A DNA stretch of 64,000 nucleotides. It comes from Prevotella sp. (GTDB lineage Bacteria > Bacteroidota > Bacteroidia > Bacteroidales > Bacteroidaceae). Shown piece after piece: positions 36,563-36,646 of the stretch. The notes beneath the pieces were generated by a model. It did no database searches, was not told where the DNA came from, and worked only from the letters and a program-made list of their open reading frames with translations. Within the stretch, counting starts at the first letter, position 1. Each line of letters starts with the position of its first letter. The stretch is taken from positions 124,001 to 188,000 of the forward strand of contig SUYH01000003.1 in NCBI GenBank assembly GCA_015060535.1, in the 5' to 3' direction. A program made the translations under genes and the position numbers.

Positions 36563-36646
36563 CTAGTATTTCTAGTCTTCCTAGTATTCCTAGTTATACT
36601 AGAGCTACTAGAAATACTAGAGCTACTAGAGCTACTAGAGCTACTA
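36563..36646 (-). repeat. 9-bp-period CTAG array A (9 perfect units plus one degenerate unit formed by the upstream stop codon)
   Basis: CTAG at 36563, 36572, 36581, 36590, 36599, 36608, 36617, 36626, 36635; CTAT at 36644. Confidence 0.95.

Follow-up and report, generated by a model that had tools for sequence, protein, structure and literature searches.

CTAG tandem arrays of a Prevotella-like genome as probable cognate repeats of a four-helix-bundle suffix protein

Short tandem arrays with a CTAG core are dispersed over the genome of a Prevotella-like bacterium, and we consider, with moderate confidence, that their cognate protein is a four-helix-bundle suffix protein (TIGR04258), gene and arrays forming a repeat system like that of REP elements and their RAYT or like an rRNA intervening sequence (IVS). 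The cognate link of the arrays to the gene, seen as linkage and as covariation, is well supported; we infer in addition that the protein binds the arrays and drives their spread or retention. A first-pass annotation of the window, that is, the whole 64-kb stretch of DNA that was analyzed, had pointed to three of these arrays, and missed two points: most arrays lie within genes, and their likely partner is the gene flanked by arrays A and B (Table 1).

The sequence of array A is exactly as that annotation had quoted it, and a direct check places the TAG stop of the four-helix-bundle gene in phase with the units. The nine CTAG units occupy 36563-36638, their lead-in on the sense strand is ATAGTAGCT, and the TAG at 36644-36646 within this lead-in is the stop of a 217-aa ORF. 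Units of array A are found again in arrays B and C, as had been stated. Matches to CTAG-N5-CTAG-N5-CTAG number 25 in the window, all of them in the three arrays (at 36563, 37340, and 42357), and none appeared in 100 dinucleotide shuffles of the window. Outside the arrays CTAG is depleted: the window has 63 against about 120 expected, and 31 of the 63 are within arrays. Apart from these, the window contains 33-bp tandem repeats at 54320-54554, detected by TRF.

Table 1. Arrays and neighboring genes in the 64-kb window
Feature	Position	Strand	Remarks
WYL-domain gene	35653..36543	-	Neighbor downstream of array A
CTAG array A	36563..36646	-	Nine CTAG units and an ATAG unit with the TAG stop of the four-helix-bundle gene; takes up the gap before the following gene
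Four helix bundle suffix gene (TIGR04258, 217 aa)	36644..37297	-	Proposed array partner; between arrays A and B
CTAG array B	37340..37442	-	12 units; upstream of the four-helix-bundle gene; 2 bp past the SpoIIE-type phosphatase stop codon
SpoIIE-type phosphatase gene	37445..39382	-	Neighbor upstream of array B
Solo 8-bp array	39384..39440	.	CGATATTT / TCGAAATA; flavor flanking the host's second TIGR04258 gene
CTAG array C	42357..42441	+	10 units; occupies the gap between glucose-6-phosphate-isomerase-like and HAD-hydrolase-like genes (names by inspection)

The host is a Prevotella-like MAG of 2.94 Mb whose nearest named loci come from rumen Prevotella and Bacteroidales, and three-unit CTAG matches occur 153 times in its genome. 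The view that the three arrays belong to a dispersed family and are not independent expansions is thus borne out, and the opposite possibility, that the genome has only three recently copied arrays, is refuted by the genome-wide matches. Fetching 34 stretches around the matches gave 45 CTAG-N5 arrays at a threshold of at least three units. Over 35 loci, comprising the window and the regions around arrays, CTAG is spaced by 9 bp in 200 cases and by any other distance below 40 in at most five; of 205 units, 202 have the exact core, whereas the 5-mers are highly diverse. Nineteen of the 45 arrays lie between genes, usually beginning a few bases past a stop codon and finishing near the next ATG, and all 19 separate co-directional genes (background 215 of 278 gene pairs; 0.77^19, or about 0.008). 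The other 26 are within ORFs and in frame: 22 are read as NCT AGN NNN and give (T/S)S-x repeats, four are read as CTA GNN, and none of the 26 is read in the TAG frame. The arrays are confined to tolerated sites, namely between co-directional genes and in in-frame loops.

It had been proposed that the order of units, TA-rich at the 5' side and purine-rich at the 3' side, is conserved among arrays. This proposal stands as a trend in composition and falls as an exact order. The purine fraction of the 5-mers increases along the sense strand toward its 3' side both between genes (P=0.0002; P=0.037 without the window's arrays) and within genes (P=0.0004). As for the order itself, arrays A and B share a longest common subsequence of 5 (P=0.06), and the value for all array pairs, P=0.037, becomes P=0.25 when the window's arrays are left out; shared ancestry of all arrays was accordingly rejected as an explanation of unit order. 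A hairpin folding code was also rejected, as permuted orders fold equally well (mean z near 0). The fusion of stop codon and array, which is real in array A, is not a general rule: in 12 of the 19 between-gene arrays the TAG shares the reading frame of the upstream gene, and in four it is the actual stop. Because an array that enters a gene in the TAG frame necessarily ends the gene, the fused stop needs no special function, and a functional reading of the fusion was discarded, the reading frame being sufficient.

The 217-aa protein meets the TIGR04258 model (four helix bundle suffix) with 62.8 bits against a cut-off of 40, and is below the Pfam gathering score for S23/IVP (PF05635; 23.7 against 33.8 bits). 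Its AlphaFold2 model is a confident helical bundle (pLDDT 89), whose best match in the PDB is the S23-type structure 2gsc (TMt 0.84, probability 1.00, with a Foldseek E of only 0.05). The same entry is the sole profile hit below 0.001 (E 8e-4); a sequence search of the PDB with the single protein gave weak chance matches only. On the basis of the model, the TIGR04258 protein is predicted to have the four-helix-bundle fold of the S23/IVP family, of which the S23 protein of X. campestris is reported to be a homopentamer of four-helix bundles (PMC4990558).

Is the proximity of this gene to arrays a peculiarity of one genome? TIGR04258 homologues in Prevotella have arrays at one or both sides, while their neighboring genes differ. 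A flank score of at least 2 was reached at 39 of 60 and at 26 of 48 flanks of Prevotella TIGR04258 genes, versus two of 59 flanks of ClpB, a control that is thus essentially array-free. Lag totals at the Prevotella flanks peak at 9 and 10, and over TIGR04258 loci from many genera of the order the peak lag is 9, with many different motifs; those at the Prevotella loci include CTAG-N5, CCTAGG-N4, CTATAG-N3, and CATAGG-N4. Upstream and downstream arrays of TIGR04258 genes are direct with respect to each other (333 shared 7-mers in direct and 152 in inverted orientation). Our search of the available literature found no report joining this four-helix-bundle family to repeats.

The motif at the gene also tends to match the motif elsewhere in the genome. 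Three patterns were counted over 30 Prevotella genomes with the gene locus subtracted, and in 16 of the 22 usable genomes the commonest dispersed motif was that of the TIGR04258 locus (permutation P=0.00045, an optimistic value, as it is counted over related genomes with relatedness uncorrected). Mismatches are mostly in genomes having several family members. Outside the locus, CTATAG-N3 matches number 55 and 113 in two genomes that carry this motif at the gene; all 11 genomes with CTAG-N5 at the gene have 0. G456, which is from a different family, has 125 matches to AAGGG-N4, its own locus motif, against 0 in the host genome; its solo arrays (L243-L262) consist of forward and reverse AAGGG/CCCTT blocks that are hairpin-capable and often form inverted pairs, and they lie mostly at gene 3' ends, about half of them between convergent genes. 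These AAGGG/CCCTT blocks resemble bidirectional 3'-end structures. The host itself has a second TIGR04258 gene (L155:2633-3376) with its own 8-bp motif, TCGAAATA, which recurs in the window at 39384-39440 as a solo array.

Shorter relatives of the protein, TIGR02436, extend the picture. In Bacteroidales, TIGR02436 genes have arrays of lag 7 or 8, the upstream and downstream ones inverted (263 inverted shared 7-mers against 82), and two TIGR02436 genes of the host carry inverted 7-bp arrays. The repeat period is thus tied to the protein subfamily, 9-10 bp for TIGR04258 and 7-8 bp for TIGR02436. On plasmids of cyanobacteria, Gemmatirosa (Gemmatimonadota), Azospirillum, and Riemerella, most such genes have inverted lag-7 arrays, with a lag-7 total of 504 against 16-48 at most other lags. 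Locus motifs are dispersed only weakly on the cyanobacterial plasmid stretches, where a single solo match was seen, in Pseudanabaena; a search of a phage collection gave no match. In several species, TIGR02436 genes sit at apparently one operon junction with differing array motifs (L178, L180-L186, L189, L191, L195, L196), a junction that by inspection is apparently the succinate dehydrogenase operon. The window has, in addition, six motifs in solo tandem arrays with 7-bp units, at 4572-4609, 8538-8569, 19465-19496, 32464-32488, 49318-49352, and 61694-61722. Since intergenic DNA of the host is enriched at lags 7, 8, and 9 and its TIGR02436 genes have inverted 7-bp arrays, these may be solo arrays of the TIGR02436 family.

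Genes hosting in-frame arrays include ClpB, RNase R, and RF2, the latter two confirmed by search; further hosts, ABC-F, Tex, MetH, and UvrA-like, were named from inspection of their sequences only. The ClpB array is in a loop that most relatives have in a short form (GDEP); some have a CTAG array there, and others a different low-complexity sequence. In L064 the ClpB loop insert is TCNGGANNN, which has a 9-bp period and is possibly a CCGG-core counterpart of the CTAG arrays. Arrays change length in 9-bp steps: RNase R proteins that are 98-100% identical differ by whole 3-aa units, and those at 93-94% identity have GKDGDY without an array. Arrays in the leucine frame (L030:4997-5027 in RF2, L022:5059-5089, and L016:5581-5629) are of another kind. 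RF2 homologues are equal in length, with mostly identical leucines and no insert at the array, which arises from CTA, 4.4% of leucine codons, used four times in register. Two four-CTAG runs occur in 17 LxxLxxLxxL motifs, where about 1e-6 would be expected; the loci were picked for having arrays, and the expectation scaled to the genome is still about 1e-5. Because the homologues carry the same residues without an insert, simple insertion fails for the RF2 array, and the leucine-codon arrays are not explained by it.

Among the closest known systems is the S23/IVP intervening sequence of 23S rRNA. In the IVS of Coxiella, tandem heptamers of variable number precede the S23p ORF (PMC4990558), so that a four-helix-bundle ORF has variable-number short tandem repeats beside its start codon, as here, and the inverted arrays of Bacteroidales TIGR02436 genes are like IVS termini. 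Unlike such an IVS, the TIGR04258 gene lies between protein genes (SpoIIE phosphatase and WYL) and not in an rRNA gene, its arrays are of 9 bp and direct rather than inverted, and solo arrays are dispersed, also in frame within genes. REP/BIME elements with their RAYT (TnpAREP) offer another likeness, as many dispersed palindromic repeats occur together with one gene that they flank, and the arrays of G456, in inverted pairs and at 3' ends, are also BIME-like. However, the partner is by profile and fold a four-helix bundle and not an HUH tyrosine transposase, and the units are short tandem repeats with many copies in coding sequence. As dispersed short tandem arrays, some in inverted pairs, they are also like the STRR heptamers of cyanobacteria, TAACTGA of Beggiatoaceae (PMC4679880), and GGGAATC of Xanthomonas and Nostoc (PMC4692102), from which the host CTAG arrays differ in having a period of 9 and not 7. 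The two papers on the TAACTGA and GGGAATC arrays make no mention of S23 or four-helix proteins; the S23 structure 2gsc originates from Xanthomonas campestris, of a GGGAATC-repeat genus.

What, then, would the protein do with the arrays? In the system that we favor, the S23-type bundle protein would bind the repeated unit, probably as RNA or single-stranded DNA folded into a periodic hairpin with the cores paired. Such pairing is possible, as CTAG is self-complementary and AAGGG arrays are accompanied by CCCTT partners; counting against selection for a hairpin is that permutation of unit order leaves folding unweakened. Recognition by the protein would hold the core constant and let the 5-mers drift. 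The protein may also promote array spread or retention, after which the arrays left by selection would be those past a stop codon or encoding in-frame (T/S)S-x loops. Two exceptions count against the cognate reading. One is the leucine-codon arrays. The other is G010, a 99% complete genome with 53 four-unit CTAG matches in which the searches made gave no hit to a TIGR04258-type or TIGR02436 gene; several further array-bearing genomes are also without a close hit. In G010 the stretches L153 and L154 have many CTAG arrays, several of them clustered within 30 kb.

The arrays might instead have a function in cis, as mRNA hairpins or as sites of processing between genes; they would then be regulated by the four-helix-bundle protein and retained for their benefit to the host rather than because they spread. 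The strictly co-directional placement of the between-gene arrays, the purine polarity on the sense strand, the 3'-end and partly convergent positions in G456, and the synonymous choice of CTA in RF2 would all suit this idea, which we nevertheless hold to be unlikely: most host arrays are variable loops in unrelated housekeeping ORFs, close relatives lack them, and the length of the RNase R array varies freely. Ordinary minisatellite growth, in which CTAG seeds expand through replication slippage and the four-helix-bundle gene is a passenger in array-rich gaps, is in our estimate improbable. It would account for copy numbers that shift by whole 9-bp units and for loops that tolerate low complexity, the ClpB site having unrelated low-complexity inserts in relatives; however, slippage products would not combine such diverse 5-mers with a nearly invariant CTAG, and the gene-array link recurs over genera with different motifs and not at ClpB flanks.

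Least probable of all, and hardly to be expected, is a relative of retroelements, in which four-helix-bundle proteins like Avd of diversity-generating retroelements (DGRs) work with a reverse transcriptase encoded elsewhere and repeat-derived cDNA is written into transcribed DNA. Avd is a four-helix-bundle protein whose fold is related to the present one, and arrays do occur in coding DNA, between co-directional genes, and over native codons. Against this, the neighboring genes examined showed no reverse transcriptase domain and no template/variable repeat pair, a true DGR avd on pANA02 is without clear flanking arrays, and the A of CTAG would be randomized by DGR mutagenesis.

Beyond the host, a class of short tandem repeats found throughout bacteria, the cyanobacterial STRRs included, may have S23-type four-helix bundles as partners; the subfamily would set the period (7, 8, 9, or 10) and the genome the motif, and the system could both write its core onto native codons and insert units; this wider proposal is tentative, and we would place it somewhat below even. 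To our knowledge, no protein partner has emerged in the decades since STRRs and similar short tandem repeats were first described. The pairing of gene and repeat described here, with the period following the protein family and the motif following the genome, gives such orphan repeat families a concrete candidate partner, and it would mean that operon junctions and protein loops are also shaped by a repeat system that has no classical transposase.
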